Assembly (NCBI RefSeq): GCF_947495625.1
Contig: NZ_CANLZW010000034.1
Location: forward strand, 1 to 50,678
Direction of reading: 5' to 3'
DNA: 50,678 bases
Source of the DNA: an uncultured Cocleimonas sp.
Lineage (GTDB): Bacteria; Pseudomonadota; Gammaproteobacteria; Thiotrichales; Thiotrichaceae
Shown here: positions 11,780-49,858 of the stretch, piece after piece
How the letters are laid out: the number at the start of each line of letters is the position of its first letter
Position numbering within the stretch: the first letter of the stretch is position 1
The notes under the pieces: generated by a model
What the model was told of the DNA's origin: nothing
Databases searched by the model: none
The model's input: the letters and a program-made list of their open reading frames with translations, nothing else
Position numbers and translations under genes: made by a program

Positions 11780-12886
11780 TTACTCAGAGACATATTCAAC
11801 TATTTCGAGGCCAAATCCTGCTAAACCATGGAAATGCTTAGGCGCACTCATCACGCGCATTTTGGTAACGCCAACATCACTTAAGATTTGCGCACCGATA
11901 CCGAATGTTTTTAATGCAGTTGGAGACGATTCGTCGTATTCAGCCTGCTTCTCGTGATTCACATCGATTTCTCTTAAACGATCAAGGAAACTTCCAGAAC
12001 TAGCACCACGCAGCACCACGATAACGCCCTGCTCTTCACGCTCCATAATTTGCATCACATCACGTAAAGGCCACGAACAGCCTTCTTCCTGAAGCGATAA
12101 CATGTCGCATAAGGTATCTTCTACATGTACACGTACCAATACCGGTTCGTTTTCTTTCACTTCGCCTTTTACCAAGGCTAGATGCGTACGTTGACTAGCA
12201 TCGTCTTTGTAACCAATAACTTTGAATTTTCCAAATTCAGTTTTTAACTCAGCTTCGTGTTTACGTACGATAGTCTTTTCATTCTGAACACGGTAACGAA
12301 TCAGTTCTTCGATAGTGCCAATTTTTATATTATGTTTTTCTGAAATTTTGAATAGATCATCACGACGCGCCATGCTGCCATCTTCATTCAAAATCTCAAC
12401 AATGGCAGCAGCAGGTTCCAGACCGGCTAATCTCGCCAAATCAACACCCGCTTCAGTATGACCCGCACGCGTTAATACGCCGCCGGGTTGTGCCATTAAT
12501 GGAAAGATATGACCAGGTTGCACAATGCTCTTACTGGTCGCATCAGGCGCCACCGCCGCACGAATTGTTAAAGCACGATCGTAAGCTGAAATGCCGGTAG
12601 TAACGCCTTCAGCGGCTTCAATAGACACCGTAAAATTGGTGCTAAACTCTTCATTATTTTCAGCAACCATCAACGGAAGAGCCAATTGCTTACAACGCTC
12701 TGCGGTAATAGGCATACAGACTAAACCACGCCCATAAGTGGCAAAAAAGTTGATATCTTCCGTTCTAACTTTAGAAGCAGCCATTAAGAAGTCGCCCTCG
12801 TTCTCACGATCTTCATCGTCAACGATAATGACCATTTTGCCTTCGGCAAGGTCTTCTATTATTTCTTCTATGCTATTAAAATTCAT
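11780..12886 (-). CDS. ribBA: RibBX: dihydroxybutanone-phosphate synthase fused to a degenerate GTP cyclohydrolase II domain
   Basis: The first 200 or so residues are a complete RibB domain, which makes 3,4-dihydroxy-2-butanone 4-phosphate from ribulose 5-phosphate. Motifs are VIIVDDEDRENEGDFL near residue 18, RAGHTEAGVDLARLAG near 140 and the C-terminal EI-rich strand. The remainder to residue 368 aligns with GTP cyclohydrolase II but lacks its Cys-rich zinc motif: the equivalent stretch reads VEDTLCDMLSLQEEGCSW. This matches the described RibBX class, in which the second domain is inactive, so another ribA would be expected elsewhere. It lies between ribE and ribH. Confidence 0.92.
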   Translation of the reverse strand: MNFNSIEEIIEDLAEGKMVIIVDDEDRENEGDFLMAASKVRTEDINFFATYGRGLVCMPITAERCKQLALPLMVAENNEEFSTNFTVSIEAAEGVTTGISAYDRALTIRAAVAPDATSKSIVQPGHIFPLMAQPGGVLTRAGHTEAGVDLARLAGLEPAAAIVEILNEDGSMARRDDLFKISEKHNIKIGTIEELIRYRVQNEKTIVRKHEAELKTEFGKFKVIGYKDDASQRTHLALVKGEVKENEPVLVRVHVEDTLCDMLSLQEEGCSWPLRDVMQIMEREEQGVIVVLRGASSGSFLDRLREIDVNHEKQAEYDESSPTALKTFGIGAQILSDVGVTKMRVMSAPKHFHGLAGFGLEIVEYVSE

Positions 12887-40117: not shown

Positions 40118-41380
40118 CTATAATTGACCACTCGGGTATTGCAAGATTTCATCCAGTAGCGCTGCATTTTCAAAACGATCAGGTGAAAAATATTTCAGAT
40201 ATTCTGGCGGTTGCTGTTTGGTGATTATCTCAGCCATTAATTCCCCCGAAGCACAGCCTGCCATGGTTCCATAACCTGCAAATGCGCCTGACACATAAAG
40301 CCCCTGTTCCAGTTCACCCATCACCGGTAAATTGTCATCGGTTCTGGTGTAGTAACCCGCGAAATGCGTCACTGATGTTGGTATCTCATCGGCGTAAGCA
40401 CTGATAGCGGGAATGAAACGACTCGCGCCTTTTAGCACCACACTGACAAATTCATCATCCGCAAAAATATCCCATTGCGGTTGTTCTTGTTGCTGATTGT
40501 ATGCCCAACCCATTTTGATCTGGTCTTGTCCTTCTGGTTTGATATGCAATCAAGCGGGGAATTCTTCCAGCAGCCAGTGATATTCTTCGTACTCATTCAT
40601 CAACTTCTCTTCATCTGGATTCCATTGAAGATACTGGCTATCCGCATAAATGGTAAACGGCATATCACGCGGTATTATTTGTTTGGTATCTTTAAAAACA
40701 AACTTTCGCTGCTTGATATTATAGATAGGAAGGTCGTAACCCAGGGATTTGGCGTGTTGTTGAATAAAGGGACCAGACGCCAGTAACAAATCTGTTGTTT
40801 CCAGTGAAGCACCCGTTTCAAATGAAAGCTTGAACTGACTTGATGCCGTTCTATCGAGTTCAACAACCTCTTCTGTGAGCAATTTCACGCCATTCTGTCT
40901 GGCGAGTTTTAATAACATCGAACCCAGTGCATACACTTCTATCGAGCCGGCTTTATTAATGTGTTCTACTGCTTTTACAGAATCTTCCAGATAGGGTTTT
41001 GTTTTCTGGATTAGCGCATGATCTTCCAATCGCTGGATATCTCCTATTTCACCAGAGTCCTTGTCGGTTAATGGAAAGATCGAATGATTGTCTTTATGTG
41101 TGACAAAGTCATAACCGCTGTATTTCATATTGAAGCAGTTATCACAATCCTTACTAAAGGCTTTCATTAAATCAATACTGTGACCGATGAATGTATTCAT
41201 CATGGGTTGAGGCCAGTATTCCCTGAAATTTTCACCCGAACAACTGGTAGTAAACGAAAGCGGCTGAAGTTTATCAATCACGATGATCTCATCAAATACG
41301 CCCAGCTTTGATAGATAGTAAGCACTCTATACACCACTGATTCCAGCACCTAGTATGGCGATTGATCTATTATTTTTCAT
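40118..41380 (-). pseudogene. FAD-dependent amine/amino-acid oxidoreductase (DadA/glycine-oxidase-like), two in-frame stops
   Basis: Starting from the ATG at 41380 the frame reads MKNNRSIAILGAGISGV, a normal FAD Rossmann start. It then meets TAG at 41327-41329, resumes SAYYLSKLG, and runs about 260 codons to a TGA at 40550-40552. It resumes again as LHIKPEGQ and continues 143 residues to a normal stop. No frameshift is needed, and the total of about 420 codons is a full-length enzyme. Later motifs such as YYTRTDDNLPVMGE and VSGAFAGYGTM are intact. The gene is divergent from tpa and upstream of etfB, so it may once have oxidised an amine such as N-methyltaurine or taurine. Sequencing error remains possible. 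Confidence 0.8.
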
Positions 41381-41414
41381 TTATGACATCCTAAAAATAT
41401 AATAATGAAAGCAA

Positions 41415-41430
41415 TCGAAATATATTTCGA
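41415..41430. promoter_or_regulatory. 16-bp perfect palindrome, possible operator
   Basis: TCGAAATATATTTCGA is a perfect palindrome 34 bases upstream of the flavin oxidoreductase ATG, with a related half TTCGAAG just after. Its position suits a repressor site, but the protein is unknown. Confidence 0.4.
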
Positions 41431-41523
41431 AGTCAATTCGAAGACAGTTAAAAAACTATGAATACTAGTATTTTGCGATTTCAGTCTCTAGTACCAGATA
41501 TCTTTTATCGCGGTTTGATCATG

Positions 41524-41594
41524 GTGCCAGTCAGCTCATTTTGGGTTAATTGGAGGGATAGTTTTATCCAGACTGGCACTATACAAAAATGAGC
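41524..41594 (+). promoter_or_regulatory. interleaved inverted repeats upstream of tpa
   Basis: GTGCCAGTC (41524-41532) matches GACTGGCAC (41571-41579), and GCTCATTTT (41534-41542) matches AAAATGAGC (41586-41594). The two 9-bp pairs cross in the order A-B-A'-B'. Between them GGATA/TATCC makes a small hairpin (41556-41569). As DNA this would be a two-site operator, perhaps for the MocR regulator; as RNA it has pseudoknot topology. A TATACA that could be a -10 box lies at 41580-41585. Confidence 0.5.
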
Positions 41595-41692
41595 CGTATA
41601 GACTACAGTTAGGAGATACCGTACAGAATCAATAAAGAGTATTGATAAACTGTATCTATTTACTATCTCAGTTATCTCAGAGGGAGAAAATC

Positions 41693-43084
41693 ATGGGTAA
41701 TACCAACGTTAATACCACACCAGCTAGCGAAATCGAAGAGTTAGCAGCTAAAGATCAAAAGCACGTTTGGCATCATCTTACGCAACATAAAGGTTTTGAA
41801 ACAACCACGCCCATGATGATGGTTTCTGGAGAAGGTTTAAGAATAACCGACGATAAAGGCAAAGAATATCTAGATGCTGTTGCTGGCGCTGTCTGGACTG
41901 TAAACGTTGGCTATGGCCGCGAGCGTATTGCCAAAGCAGTTTACGAGCAAATTAAAACCATGAACTTCTTTGCAGGTTCTATGGGTAGCGCACCAGGCGC
42001 ACAATTCGCAGAAATGCTGATTGATAAAATGCCTGGAATGAACCGCGTTTATTATTCGAACTCAGGTTCTGAAGCGAATGAAAAAGCTTTCAAAATGGTT
42101 CGTCAGATTTCACATAACAAATATGACGGCAAGAAACACAAGATTCTTTTCCGTGAGCGTGATTATCACGGCACTACCATTACCGCTTTGAGCGCTACGG
42201 GACAACTTCAACGTAAAGATCAGTACGGTCCATTTACACCGGGTTTTGTTGAATTCCCACACTGTTGTGAATACCGTTCGCAGTTTGAAGATACGACTGA
42301 CTACGGTGTAAAAGCAGCACTGGAAATGGAAAAAGTAATCCTGGCTGAAGGTCCAGATACAGTCGGTGCAGTTATTGTAGAGCCAATTACAGCAGGCGGT
42401 GGCGTAATCACACCGCCAGTAGGATACTACGAGAAAATTCAGGAACTTTGCAAAAAATACAACCTACTGTTGATTGTTGATGAAGTAGTTTGTGGTCTTG
42501 GACGCACAGGAACATGGTTCGGATACCAGCATTTCGGCATCAAGCCTGACATCGTGACAATGGCAAAAGGCGTTGCTTCTGGTTACGCAGCAATCTCTTG
42601 TACCGTTACGACTGAAGAAGTCTTCAATATGTTTAAAGAAGACCCAAGCGATAACATGAGCTACTTCCGTGATATCTCTACCTTTGGTGGTTGTACTGCT
42701 GGTCCGGCAGCGGCTATCGAAAACATGAAGATCATCGAAGAAGAAAACCTACTTGAGAACGTAACCAAGATGGGTGAGTACGCGATGGATAGAATGCTTG
42801 CGCTGAAAGAAAAGCATGCAATGATCGGCGATGTACGTGGTAAAGGCTTGTTCTTAGGTATCGAGCTCGTAAAAGATCGCGAAACCAAAGAGCCTATGGA
42901 TGAGAGCGTTTCAGTAGCAATCGCAGCTGATTGTATGAAAAATGGCGTTATTATCGGTAGAACAAATCGTAGCTTTGCAACATTGAATAATACGCTATGT
43001 CTTGCACCTGCTTTGATTGCGACGAAAGATGATATCGATGAAATTATGGATGCGATTGACGCTGCAATTACTCGATTAAGTTAA
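41693..43084 (+). CDS. tpa: taurine-pyruvate aminotransferase
   Basis: Tpa transfers the amino group of taurine to pyruvate, giving sulfoacetaldehyde and alanine. The 463-residue class III aminotransferase begins MGNTNVNTTP after a GAGGGAG ribosome site. It contains the Tpa-like HVWHHLTQHKGFE and AVAGAVWTVNVGYG. PLP residues are D263 in VDEVVCGLGRTG and K292 in MAKGVASGY. The presence of xsc 5 kb downstream and a TauR-like regulator next door supports taurine as the substrate over other omega-amino acids. Repeat copy 11 and a strong hairpin follow. Confidence 0.92.
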   Translation: MGNTNVNTTPASEIEELAAKDQKHVWHHLTQHKGFETTTPMMMVSGEGLRITDDKGKEYLDAVAGAVWTVNVGYGRERIAKAVYEQIKTMNFFAGSMGSAPGAQFAEMLIDKMPGMNRVYYSNSGSEANEKAFKMVRQISHNKYDGKKHKILFRERDYHGTTITALSATGQLQRKDQYGPFTPGFVEFPHCCEYRSQFEDTTDYGVKAALEMEKVILAEGPDTVGAVIVEPITAGGGVITPPVGYYEKIQELCKKYNLLLIVDEVVCGLGRTGTWFGYQHFGIKPDIVTMAKGVASGYAAISCTVTTEEVFNMFKEDPSDNMSYFRDISTFGGCTAGPAAAIENMKIIEEENLLENVTKMGEYAMDRMLALKEKHAMIGDVRGKGLFLGIELVKDRETKEPMDESVSVAIAADCMKNGVIIGRTNRSFATLNNTLCLAPALIATKDDIDEIMDAIDAAITRLS

Positions 43085-43106: not shown

Positions 43107-43153
43107 AAAATGCCTAAATTTGGGTCACCCCCCTACTTTTAGGCATTTTTTTT
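43107..43153 (+). repeat. dispersed 3'-end repeat, copy 11, set in a perfect stem-loop
   Basis: GTCACCCCCCTACTTTT then AGGCATTTTTTTT (43124-43153) starts 39 bases after the tpa stop. Its 3' half pairs perfectly over 12 bases with AAAATGCCTAAA at 43107-43118, leaving the C-run in the loop and a T-tract after the stem. This has the layout of a rho-independent terminator. Confidence 0.88.
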
Positions 43154-43284: not shown

Positions 43285-43399
43285 AAATTCCTTTTTCTAA
43301 ACTATACTGACTCTCATAGAAGAATAAATATAAGAGATGGATCTATAGCAGGGTCCGATATGGGATCAGAATAATCTATATAAAAAGAGACAATCGAGT

Positions 43400-44869
43400 T
43401 TGACTGAATATCTATTTCAACTATCAGAAACATCAACCGGCACGCTGCAATCCCGTATCCAGGAAATGATGGTGTCAGCGATCGTCAATCGTCATGTAAG
43501 GCCCGGCATGCCATTGCCTTCGGGACGAAAATTAGCGGATCAATTAAAAGTCTCTCGAAATACGGTAGTACTTGCCTATCAAAACCTAGTGGATGAGGGT
43601 TTTATTGAAACGCGTCAACGCAGTGGCTATTACGTTTGTGAAGATGTGCTATCGGGTTATGCGAATACAAAACCACAAGACACAGAAACCAAAGGAAAAT
43701 CCAGCTTAGACTGGAAACAGCTTTTCAGTATTCAACCGAGTAAATTTGTTACCGCAAGAAAACAACAAGACTGGCAAAACTTTCCCTACGCTTTTTTATA
43801 CGGTCAATACGATAAAGAAATTTTTCCGATATCAGACTGGCGCGAATGCTGCCGTGATGCCGCAAGTATATCTGCCATTTATGACTGGGCTTCTGATCAT
43901 ATCGATCAGGACAATTCAGAACTAATCGACCAGATTCATAACAAACTATTGCCTCGACGCGGCATCTTTGTTGAGCCGGATGAAATCCTGGTAACACTGG
44001 GTGCACAAAATGCAATTTTTCTTACCGCTCAACTTCTACTCAGTAAAGATAAAACCATTGGTATTGAAAACCCGGGTTATGTTGATGCCAGAAACACCTT
44101 TCTCACTCAAACCGATAAAATCACTTGTCTAGATGTTGATGAAGATGGTCTAGTTATTGATGAAAAACTAGATGACTGTGATTGCGTATATGTTACTCCC
44201 AGTCATCAATATCCAACGACGGTAACCATGCCGATAAAACGTCGTACCGAGTTACTAAAGAATGCCAAGGAAAACAATTTCATAATCATTGAAGACGATT
44301 ACGAAGCAGAACTGACCTACAATAAAAAACCACTCGCCGCCCTTAAAAGTCAAGATACAGACGGTCGTGTAATTTACATCGGCAGTATTTCAAAAACACT
44401 GGCGCCTGGTATACGCTTAGGCTTTATGGTGGCACCCAAAGAATTTATCGAAGAAGCCCGCGTATTAAGACGCTTGATGTTGAAACATCCGCCGAGCAAT
44501 AATCAATTTATCATCGCGCGTTTCTTACAACGCGGCTATCACGACTCCTTGATTCGCAAACTCAGTCTAACGCTATATAAACGCTCAAACGCTATGCGCG
44601 CTCAGATAGATGAGAATTTCCCTGGCGAGGCATTAGAGTCACAACACGGTGGCTCCGCACTCTGGATAAAGGGTCCCAAAGGATTAGATTCTCGCAAGCT
44701 CGCTGAAGAGCTTTTAATCGAAGGCGTTCTGATTGAACCCGGCGATGTATATTTCTACCCTAAGAAAGATAAATGTGAATATTTTCGTTTAGGATTCTCT
44801 TCATTGCCAGAAGATAAAATTGCCACGGGTATTGAAAAAATTATAGAGAAAATCAAGCATTTAAGCTAA
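43400..44869 (+). CDS. tauR: MocR-family transcription regulator, probable TauR
   Basis: The 489-residue chimera has an N-terminal GntR-type winged helix (about residues 12-80, with SGRKLADQLKVSRNTVVLAYQNL). It is joined to a class I aminotransferase-like domain. The PLP lysine is K332 in GSISKTLAPGIRLG, and IIEDDYEAEL is intact. TauR of Rhodobacter, a MocR protein, activates taurine genes, and this gene directly follows tpa, so the same role is likely. The start is a TTG at 43400; the first ATG would cut into the DNA-binding domain. Repeat copy 12 follows its stop. Confidence 0.85.
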   Translation: MTEYLFQLSETSTGTLQSRIQEMMVSAIVNRHVRPGMPLPSGRKLADQLKVSRNTVVLAYQNLVDEGFIETRQRSGYYVCEDVLSGYANTKPQDTETKGKSSLDWKQLFSIQPSKFVTARKQQDWQNFPYAFLYGQYDKEIFPISDWRECCRDAASISAIYDWASDHIDQDNSELIDQIHNKLLPRRGIFVEPDEILVTLGAQNAIFLTAQLLLSKDKTIGIENPGYVDARNTFLTQTDKITCLDVDEDGLVIDEKLDDCDCVYVTPSHQYPTTVTMPIKRRTELLKNAKENNFIIIEDDYEAELTYNKKPLAALKSQDTDGRVIYIGSISKTLAPGIRLGFMVAPKEFIEEARVLRRLMLKHPPSNNQFIIARFLQRGYHDSLIRKLSLTLYKRSNAMRAQIDENFPGEALESQHGGSALWIKGPKGLDSRKLAEELLIEGVLIEPGDVYFYPKKDKCEYFRLGFSSLPEDKIATGIEKIIEKIKHLS

Positions 44870-47966: not shown

Positions 47967-47983
47967 TGAGATTATTCATCTCA
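47967..47983. promoter_or_regulatory. putative IclR operator, site 1
   Basis: TGAGA-TTATTCA-TCTCA is a 17-base palindrome with 5-base arms and a 7-base spacer, 65 bases from the iclR start. Its centre is 48 bases from that of site 2. Together the two sites also form a larger 20-base inverted repeat with 18 matches. Confidence 0.55.
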
Positions 47984-48000
47984 TTTAGTAAAAATAATGA

Positions 48001-48029
48001 TTGACTTAAATTAATGAGACGATTAATCT
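48001..48029 (+). promoter_or_regulatory. candidate xsc promoter
   Basis: TTGACT (48001-48006) and TAATCT (48024-48029) are spaced by 17 bases. The -10 box is weak and lies inside operator site 2, which fits regulated transcription. Confidence 0.35.
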
Positions 48030-48031
48030 CA
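48015..48031. promoter_or_regulatory. putative IclR operator, site 2
   Basis: TGAGA-CGATTAA-TCTCA has the same arms and spacer as site 1. It overlaps the candidate xsc -10 box and lies 70 bases before the xsc ATG. Confidence 0.55.
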
Positions 48032-48100: not shown

Positions 48101-49858
48101 ATGGCTAAAATGACGCCAAGTGAAGCATTCGTAGAGACTATGGTTGCGAATGACGTAGACACCATATTTGGAATTATGGGTTCTGCTTTTATGGATGCGA
48201 TGGATATCTTCGCTCCTGCTGGAATTAGTCTAATTCCGGTTGTACATGAGCAAGGTGCAACGCACATGGCTGATGGTTATTCACGTGCTACAGGTAAGCA
48301 CGGTGTAAGTATCGGACAAAATGGTCCTGGTATTTCTAACTCTGTAACAGCAGTTGCAGCAGCATACTGGGCACACACTCCATTAGTAATGATCACTCCT
48401 GAGACAGGAACCATGGGTCAAGGCCTTGGTGGTTTCCAGGAAGCTAATCAGCTACCAATGTTTGAAGAATTTACTAAGTACCAGGGTCACGTATGTCACC
48501 CAGCTCGTATGGCTGAGTTCACAGCACGTTGTTTTGATCGTGCAATGTCTGAAATGGGTCCTACACAGTTAAACATTCCACGTGATTACTTTTACGGTGA
48601 AATCGACGTTACGATTCCTAAGCCTATGCGTTTAGATCGTGGTCCAGGTGGAACACATAGCCTAAACGAAGCAGCAGACTTAATTGCAGAAGCTAAATTC
48701 CCAGTAATCATTTCTGGTGGCGGCGTTGTAATGGGTGATGCAATTGAGCAATGTAAAGCACTTGCAGAACGTTTAAACGCACCTGTTGTAAACAGCTACC
48801 TTCACAATGACTCATTCCCGGCAAGTCACCCACTATGGTGTGGTCCACTAGGATATCAAGGTTCTAAAGCTTCTATGAAGCTAATGGCTCAAGCTGACGT
48901 TGTAATCGCTTTAGGTTCACGTTTAGGTCCATTCGGAACATTACCACAACATGGCATGGATTACTGGCCAACTGAAGCCAAGATCATCCAGATCGATGCT
49001 GATCACAAAATGCTAGGTTTAGTTAAAGATATCTCTGTTGGTATTTGCGGTGACGCAGGTGAAGCAGCAACAGCACTTGTTGACCGTTTAGAAGGTCGCG
49101 ACCTAGCTTCTGATGCGAACAAAGATGAGCGTGTTGCTACAATGAACGCAGAAAAGTCAGCTTGGGAAAAAGAGTTAACTGAGTGGGTTCATGAGAAAGA
49201 CGATTTCTCTCAGGACATGGTTGAAGAAAACAAAGAGTTTGGTTACCCATCTCCACGTCAGGTATTACGCGCACTTGAAAACGCAATGCCAGAAGACGTA
49301 ATGGTTTCTACAGACATCGGTAACATCAACTCTGTAGCTAACAGCTACCTACGTTTTGAAAAGCCACGTTCTTTCTTCGCAGCAATGAGCTGGGGTAACT
49401 GTGGTTATGCATTCCCAACAATCATTGGCGCTAAGAAAGCTGCTCCACATCGTCCTGCTATCTCATACGCAGGTGACGGCGCATGGGCAATGAGCATGAT
49501 GGAAACTATGACCTGTGTACGTCATGACATCCCTGTTACTGCGGTTGTATTCCATAACCGTCATTGGGGTGCAGAAAAGAAGAACCAGGTTGATTTCTAC
49601 GGTCGTCGTTTCACAGCGGCTGAGTTAACAGATCAGGACTTCTCAGCAATCGCTAAAGCAATGGGCGCAGAAGCAATCACTGTTACTAAGCTTGAAGAAG
49701 TTGGACCGGCACTAGAAAAAGCAATCGACATGCAGATGAACGAAGGCAAGACGACTATCATCGAGATCTTCACAACTCGTGAATTAGGCGACCCGTTCCG
49801 TAAAGATGCATTGAGCAAGCCAGTACGTTACCTTGAGAAATACAAAGACTACGTATAA
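48101..49858 (+). CDS. xsc: sulfoacetaldehyde acetyltransferase
   Basis: Xsc is a thiamine-diphosphate enzyme that converts sulfoacetaldehyde and phosphate to acetyl phosphate and sulfite. The 585-residue protein follows the three-domain ThDP plan. VVHEQGATHMADGYSRATGK near residue 48 holds the catalytic glutamate. GTMGQGLGGFQEANQ is Xsc-like, and GDGAWAMSMMETM with VFHNRHWG near residue 465 binds ThDP-Mg. The ribosome site AGAGGAG is strong. Codon choice is markedly uniform (GCA, GCT, GTA, CGT), suggesting high expression. pta, which often neighbours xsc, is not here; an IS110 element follows. Confidence 0.96.
   Translation: MAKMTPSEAFVETMVANDVDTIFGIMGSAFMDAMDIFAPAGISLIPVVHEQGATHMADGYSRATGKHGVSIGQNGPGISNSVTAVAAAYWAHTPLVMITPETGTMGQGLGGFQEANQLPMFEEFTKYQGHVCHPARMAEFTARCFDRAMSEMGPTQLNIPRDYFYGEIDVTIPKPMRLDRGPGGTHSLNEAADLIAEAKFPVIISGGGVVMGDAIEQCKALAERLNAPVVNSYLHNDSFPASHPLWCGPLGYQGSKASMKLMAQADVVIALGSRLGPFGTLPQHGMDYWPTEAKIIQIDADHKMLGLVKDISVGICGDAGEAATALVDRLEGRDLASDANKDERVATMNAEKSAWEKELTEWVHEKDDFSQDMVEENKEFGYPSPRQVLRALENAMPEDVMVSTDIGNINSVANSYLRFEKPRSFFAAMSWGNCGYAFPTIIGAKKAAPHRPAISYAGDGAWAMSMMETMTCVRHDIPVTAVVFHNRHWGAEKKNQVDFYGRRFTAAELTDQDFSAIAKAMGAEAITVTKLEEVGPALEKAIDMQMNEGKTTIIEIFTTRELGDPFRKDALSKPVRYLEKYKDYV

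Follow-up and report, generated by a model that had tools for sequence, protein, structure and literature searches.

The DNA analysed was a stretch of 50,678 bp from an uncultured Cocleimonas sp., referred to below as the window. It carries a class III aminotransferase gene (41693..43084, plus strand; PF00202) that probably encodes a taurine-pyruvate aminotransferase and is here called tpa. The best NCBIfam match to its product is PRK07678, a general aminotransferase model, at 486.9 bits against a cut-off of 488, and does not supply the name tpa; that name follows from the company of the gene, as its homologues often have MocR and xsc genes close by. Downstream of tpa is a gene for a MocR regulator, probably TauR (43400..44869, plus strand), whose product combines a GntR-type helix-turn-helix domain with an aminotransferase-like domain (PF00392 and PF00155) and has GabR as its nearest solved structures (E 5.6e-46). 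NCBIfam gives this protein the name PdxR (364.4 bits, cut-off 320). Two genes for IclR-type regulators follow, and then xsc (48101-49858; TIGR03457, 1002 bits, cut-off 676). Upstream of tpa, a divergent gene on the minus strand (40121-41389) matches the FAD-dependent oxidoreductase family DAO (PF01266). When compared with the intact 423-aa protein of Cocleimonas flava (95% identical over 423 aa) it contains three in-frame stops, and so looks broken in this genome.

The DNA between the divergent gene and tpa had been singled out in an earlier note for two crossed inverted repeats, and every element described there is present. Arm A, GTGCCAGTC (41524-41532), is a 9-nt perfect partner of arm A', GACTGGCAC (41571-41579), while arm B, GCTCATTTT (41534-41542), pairs with arm B', AAAATGAGC (41586-41594), neither B arm being assigned a strand. 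The order is A-B-A'-B', with a 5-bp hairpin, GGATA/TATCC, nested in the middle (within 41556-41569), and the centre distances are 47 bp for A-A' and 52 bp for B-B', as had been claimed. The A/A' complementarity extends to 12 nt at 92%. Interlocked perfect 9/9 pairs appeared in 0 of 4000 dinucleotide shuffles of the 86-nt stretch 41515-41600, and any perfect 9-bp pair in 0.98% of them; when 1000 shuffles were made of the larger stretch 41385-41692, the two frequencies were 1.0% and 26%, respectively. A scan of the real 50,678-bp sequence in 90-nt windows (step 10) returned two clusters with interlocked 9/9 pairs. The second, with starts at 12321-12341, covers about 12321-12431 and lies inside an ORF (11780-12886). 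Together, the shuffles and this further cluster indicate that the crossed pattern is improbable locally yet not unique in 50 kb. The repeats are a fair thing to flag, though the finding is ordinary in kind.

Arm A' overlaps a TauR-type box, CTGGCACTAT (41573..41582, plus strand), which scores 12.8 against a position weight matrix (PWM) derived from the boxes in 47 loci. The pattern CTGGNACYA, picked after the site was seen, has four matches in the window, three of them here (41573 on the plus strand; 41530 and 41497 on the minus strand). The match at 41573 overlaps arm A' and that at 41530 overlaps arm A. The complementarity of the two arms is thus explained by a single box being present twice, in opposite orientations. 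The last of the three matches had not been listed in the earlier note.

The pattern CTGGNNCTA was seen by eye upstream of tpa in seven of the eight family loci besides the window, G071 being the one without it. The comparison was then widened to the best 80 of 116 tpa loci confirmed in a contig scan, with up to 330 bp of upstream DNA for each (86 bp in L034). On the tpa strand CTGGNNCTA occurs upstream in 54/80 loci, whereas 100 first-order resampled sets averaged 1.12 and never exceeded 3; for the opposite strand the count is 8/80 loci, with a resampled mean of 0.97 and maximum of 4. Two of the 80, L013 (= G003, C. flava) and L014 (= G011), had served in choosing the pattern. Among the 26 loci lacking the strict box, eight have a MocR gene nearby, and some carry relaxed forms (CTGGCCTTA in L052 and L055; TTGGTCCTA in L015); no box, strict or relaxed, was found upstream of tpa in, for example, L040, L041, L056, L066 and L089-L091. 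A single box is not specific, as the window holds 48 PWM matches scoring at least 9. Moreover, CTGGNNCTAT occurs 74+74 times in the genome against 59+52 for a control; the box is thus too short, and the listing of a TauR regulon from single boxes was rejected.

A distal direct box on the plus strand, TTGGAGGGAT (41550..41559), has its TGG at 41551, 23 bp before the proximal TGG at 41574; this partner was also absent from the earlier list. It resembles the proximal box only in the TGG (PWM score -1.65) and is without the C that is common at column -16. A predicted -10 hexamer of the tpa promoter, TACAGT (41604..41609, plus strand), begins at +31 from the start of the proximal box. For the comparison with other loci, L013 was set aside and loci more than 70% identical were dropped, which left 40 of the 54 for alignment on the box; multi-box loci were anchored on the box with a TG or TGG 22-24 bp upstream, a choice that slightly inflates the spacing count. 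In 28 of these 40 non-redundant loci a TGG lies upstream of the box, at 23 bp in 21 and at 22 bp in seven. The sequence TANNNT begins between +29 and +31 from the box start in 25/40 loci (1, 17 and 7 loci at 29, 30 and 31, respectively), where 500 base shuffles gave 1.9 on average and 8 at most. The window fits both spacing rules, with 23 bp from TGG to TGG and TACAGT at +31. It is these two distances, 23 bp and 31 bp, that are informative, and not the near-integral helix turns that had been read into the A-A' and B-B' spacings. From the position of the -10 hexamer, transcription of tpa would start about 7 nt further on, at about 41616 on the plus strand. A consensus sigma-70 scan of 41350-41720 was uninformative, returning one site (41374-41403) against 2.0 in shuffles. 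Confidence in the boxes and the -10 rule is high.

The predicted start bears directly on the proposal that the repeats act as RNA, with stems A-A' and B-B' forming a pseudoknot in the tpa leader that senses taurine or a related metabolite. In favour of this proposal, the crossed arrangement does exist and is improbable for this stretch (the 0/4000 shuffles above), and the strand 41515-41600 folds better than its shuffles (z -3.30). The minimum-energy fold of this stretch contains A/A' and the small hairpin without B/B', as calculated by a method that cannot show pseudoknots. However, the predicted start at about 41616 is downstream of both pairs, and a start beyond 41594 is what the earlier note itself had named as excluding the RNA model; the repeats therefore fall outside the predicted tpa transcript, as a riboswitch would not. 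A search of 41300-41760 against Rfam with cmscan gave only snoU25, at chance level (E 3.4) and outside the repeats. The A-B-A'-B' order is, on paper, that of H-type pseudoknot riboswitches, but the present repeats differ from those in lying upstream of the predicted start, in the lack of conservation of the pairing (see below) and in having no Rfam match. No taurine riboswitch was named in the titles or abstract openings among the matches listed, which is not proof of its absence from print.

Conservation of the arms was examined in the relatives. With tpa as query at E up to 1e-150, hits were obtained in 4 of 12 genus genomes, namely that of the window, G003, G011 and G007; the order-level tpa search returned the same 63 genomes as the family-level search. 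The nearest named relative is C. flava, whose tpa is 99% identical; it is identical over the arms and so says little about their conservation. G011, with tpa 82% identical, keeps TTGGAGGGATA of the distal direct box (as does C. flava), CTGGCTCTA, and CTACAGTTAGG of the -10 region, while arms A and B are absent; its complements to the box region all fall short of 4 nt, and those to B' do not exceed 5 nt. In G007 (tpa 64%) CTGGCTCTATA is kept and the longest stretches of complementarity measure 5 and 4 nt; the corresponding lengths in L015 (tpa 78%) are 4 and 5 nt. Among the 57 promoters compared (the 54 with a strict box plus those of the window, G007 and L015), the window and C. flava are the two that carry a perfect 9-nt complement of the box region, and the same two are the only ones with a 9-nt perfect complement of the B' region; the next longest are 8 nt, in L072 for the box region and in L044 for the B' region. 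No compensating changes in A/A' or B/B' were observed in the 57 promoters, the sole other carrier being C. flava with its identical arms. The stretch from G011 folds with a z of -1.51, compared with -3.30 for the window. A DNA search of 57 relatives with 41480-41700 gave three matches: the genome itself, G003, and a weak 35-bp match in G036 (E 0.005).

Retention of the box in relatives where the pairing is missing is what would be expected of protein boxes and not of paired RNA. The pairs are missing in G011, G007 and L015, and what is conserved of A' is a box that also occurs in promoters without any complement to it. An RNA role is thus of low probability, and the metabolite-sensing pseudoknot in particular appears extremely improbable; it was rejected from the predicted start together with the missing pairs.

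Further upstream, towards the divergent oxidoreductase gene, there are two reverse boxes on the minus strand. The first, CTGGCACCAT (41521..41530), overlaps arm A and fits CTGGNACYA with a PWM score of 8.2; the second, CTGGTACTAG (41488..41497), is 33 bp away and scores 11.6. The arm A box is therefore weaker than both the A' box (12.8) and the box at 41497. The second reverse box is kept in C. flava, where the spacing is 32, and the box at 41521-41530 is not present in G011. When reverse matches scoring at least 7 were counted between -110 and -24 in the 47 loci used for the PWM, 24 were found in 18 loci, whereas 60 resampled sets contained 2.8 on average and never more than 7, with the qualification that several of these 18 loci are from related Pseudomonas or Marinobacterium. 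Forward matches in the same interval are at chance level (2 versus 2.2). Boxes in reverse orientation are thus a part of these operators, and the arm A box fits as one, if weakly.

The reverse boxes may serve the divergent oxidoreductase gene, a looped complex or the regulator. A possible, though weak, -10 for the divergent gene is TAGTAT (41462..41467, minus strand), at position +30 relative to the box at 41497. No TWNNNT was found at +29 to +31 from any of eight strict reverse boxes in six loci of the relatives. Where these have direct partners the distance is 22-24 bp, compared with 33 bp for the reverse pair here, and the case for a divergent promoter is a weak one. Searches with the C. 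flava protein placed the oxidoreductase near tpa in one of the 80 loci, that of C. flava. We take the COG665 oxidoreductases and the DAO family of the divergent gene to be the same family. The TauR regulons of some Rhodobacterales take in a COG665 oxidoreductase, according to PMC5320631.

The second suggestion of the earlier note, a double operator in DNA for a MocR dimer, survives in part: A and A' overlap TauR-type boxes in opposite orientations, but B/B' is not a MocR box. Arm B' sits downstream of the proximal box and ahead of the -10 hexamer. The B/B' pair is probably a coincidence, which is the simplest reading. It could instead work as another operator that interlocks with the TauR boxes and is bound by, for instance, one of the IclR-type regulators in the cluster, and a 9-bp pair is indeed rare by chance (0.13% of trials when the B' region was shuffled, besides the 0.98% for any pair in the 86 nt). 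The cluster also has its two IclR-type genes, and between an IclR-type gene and xsc are palindromes of the form TGAGA-N7-TCTCA, at 47967-47983 and 48015-48031, 48 bp apart, whose arms TGAGA/TCTCA share, by eye, ATGAG/CTCAT with B/B'. On the other hand, B/B' is absent from G011, G007 and L015, it occurs at this one site in the genome and nowhere else, its 52-bp arm spacing is unlike that of the xsc palindromes, and C. flava is too close to be informative. A functional B/B' operator is accordingly judged quite unlikely; if it were real, the two interlocked operators would open the same 70 bp to competition between two signals, or to looping by them. The palindromes are themselves candidate IclR-type operators. 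No CTGGNNCTA box was seen at 47967-48031, and the region upstream of xsc in the window found no match in the 11.5 kb of C. flava DNA around the cluster.

On the preferred reading, which is very probably correct, this DNA serves tpa as both promoter and operator and responds to a TauR-type MocR regulator, in all likelihood the product of the gene just downstream of tpa. A MocR homologue (tblastn, more than 200 aa) is encoded in 53 of the 80 tpa loci, and full-length homologues of the MocR protein, at 38-51%, are found in most MocR-bearing loci. That the neighbouring MocR protein binds the boxes can be proposed with moderate confidence. The boxes might be real and yet be bound by another MocR paralogue or regulator, as the name PdxR given to the neighbour by NCBIfam could imply. 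The box is also present in 9/27 loci without a MocR homologue, a figure that may be too high because no flank exceeded 5 kb and some contigs are short. Against such a different binder, 45 of the 53 loci with a MocR homologue nearby carry the box, and the DNA before mocR itself (43337-43369) has two boxes, with TGGs at 43338 and 43361, that are 23 bp apart and kept in C. flava, making a different binder unlikely. The mocR pair would be in keeping with possible autoregulation; no -10 was seen by eye at +30 there.

The predicted arrangement compares well with known operators of this family. The published TauR consensus is CTGGACYTAA, and in Rhodobacter capsulatus the TauR operators contain it in direct repeats; most MocR motifs contain TGT or TGG, and their repeats are separated by one or several helix turns (PMC5320631). 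Shared with the TauR operators of that source are the CTGG core with its CTA-like tail, a direct repetition at about two helical turns, and a location before tpa with a MocR gene adjacent: the boxes here resemble CTGGACYTAA in the relaxed form CTGGNNCTA of the relatives, the direct repeats are 23 bp apart, within the two or three helix turns looked for, with an upstream box that is weak beyond the TGG, and the taurine genes are accompanied by MocR (43400) and xsc (48101). The sites here are predicted ones, and they differ from those operators in the third to ninth positions (CTGGCACTAT), in the upstream direct box, alike only in TGG, and in having two extra reverse boxes. Table 2 of PMC5320631 gives 39 regulons with the order <- <- -> ->, and the four boxes here agree with it in number, order and orientation, with 33 bp between the two reverse boxes and 23 bp between the two forward ones. 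In the portion of PMC6917764 available, operator geometry was not found.

Given this architecture, a working model for tpa can be put forward. The effector of TauR is taurine or a PLP-bound effector. The regulator, loaded with effector, would occupy the two direct boxes (TGG at 41551 and 41574), which are separated by 23 bp, approximately two helical turns, upstream of the -10 at 41604-41609, and would help RNA polymerase to start tpa transcription. The proximal box would cover about -43 to -34 relative to the predicted start near 41616, which is the position of an activator, and the two reverse boxes (41521-41530 and 41488-41497) would lie further upstream, on the side of the divergent gene.

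Overall, a candidate taurine riboswitch is removed and a testable operator replaces it. The tpa promoter architecture, comprising a TGG, 22-23 bp, CTGGNNCTA and a -10 starting approximately 30 bp after the start of the box, could help to predict taurine promoters elsewhere. The locus also illustrates that opposite copies of the box of one protein can mimic an RNA stem.

Separately, an exact 13-mer, CACCCCCCTACTT, is repeated 11 times in the window, on the plus strand at 79, 21333, 22797, 25308, 31606, 32556, 36700, 43126 and 44887 and on the minus strand at 120 and 11714. It is present 343+434 times in the 4.6-Mb genome, where its reversed control is found 0 times, and is also present in C. 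flava, G011 and G007. It is possibly a DNA-uptake-like or terminator-linked repeat. The copy at 43126 is situated, by eye, within the loop of a stem that is followed by a run of T, in the manner of an intrinsic terminator.
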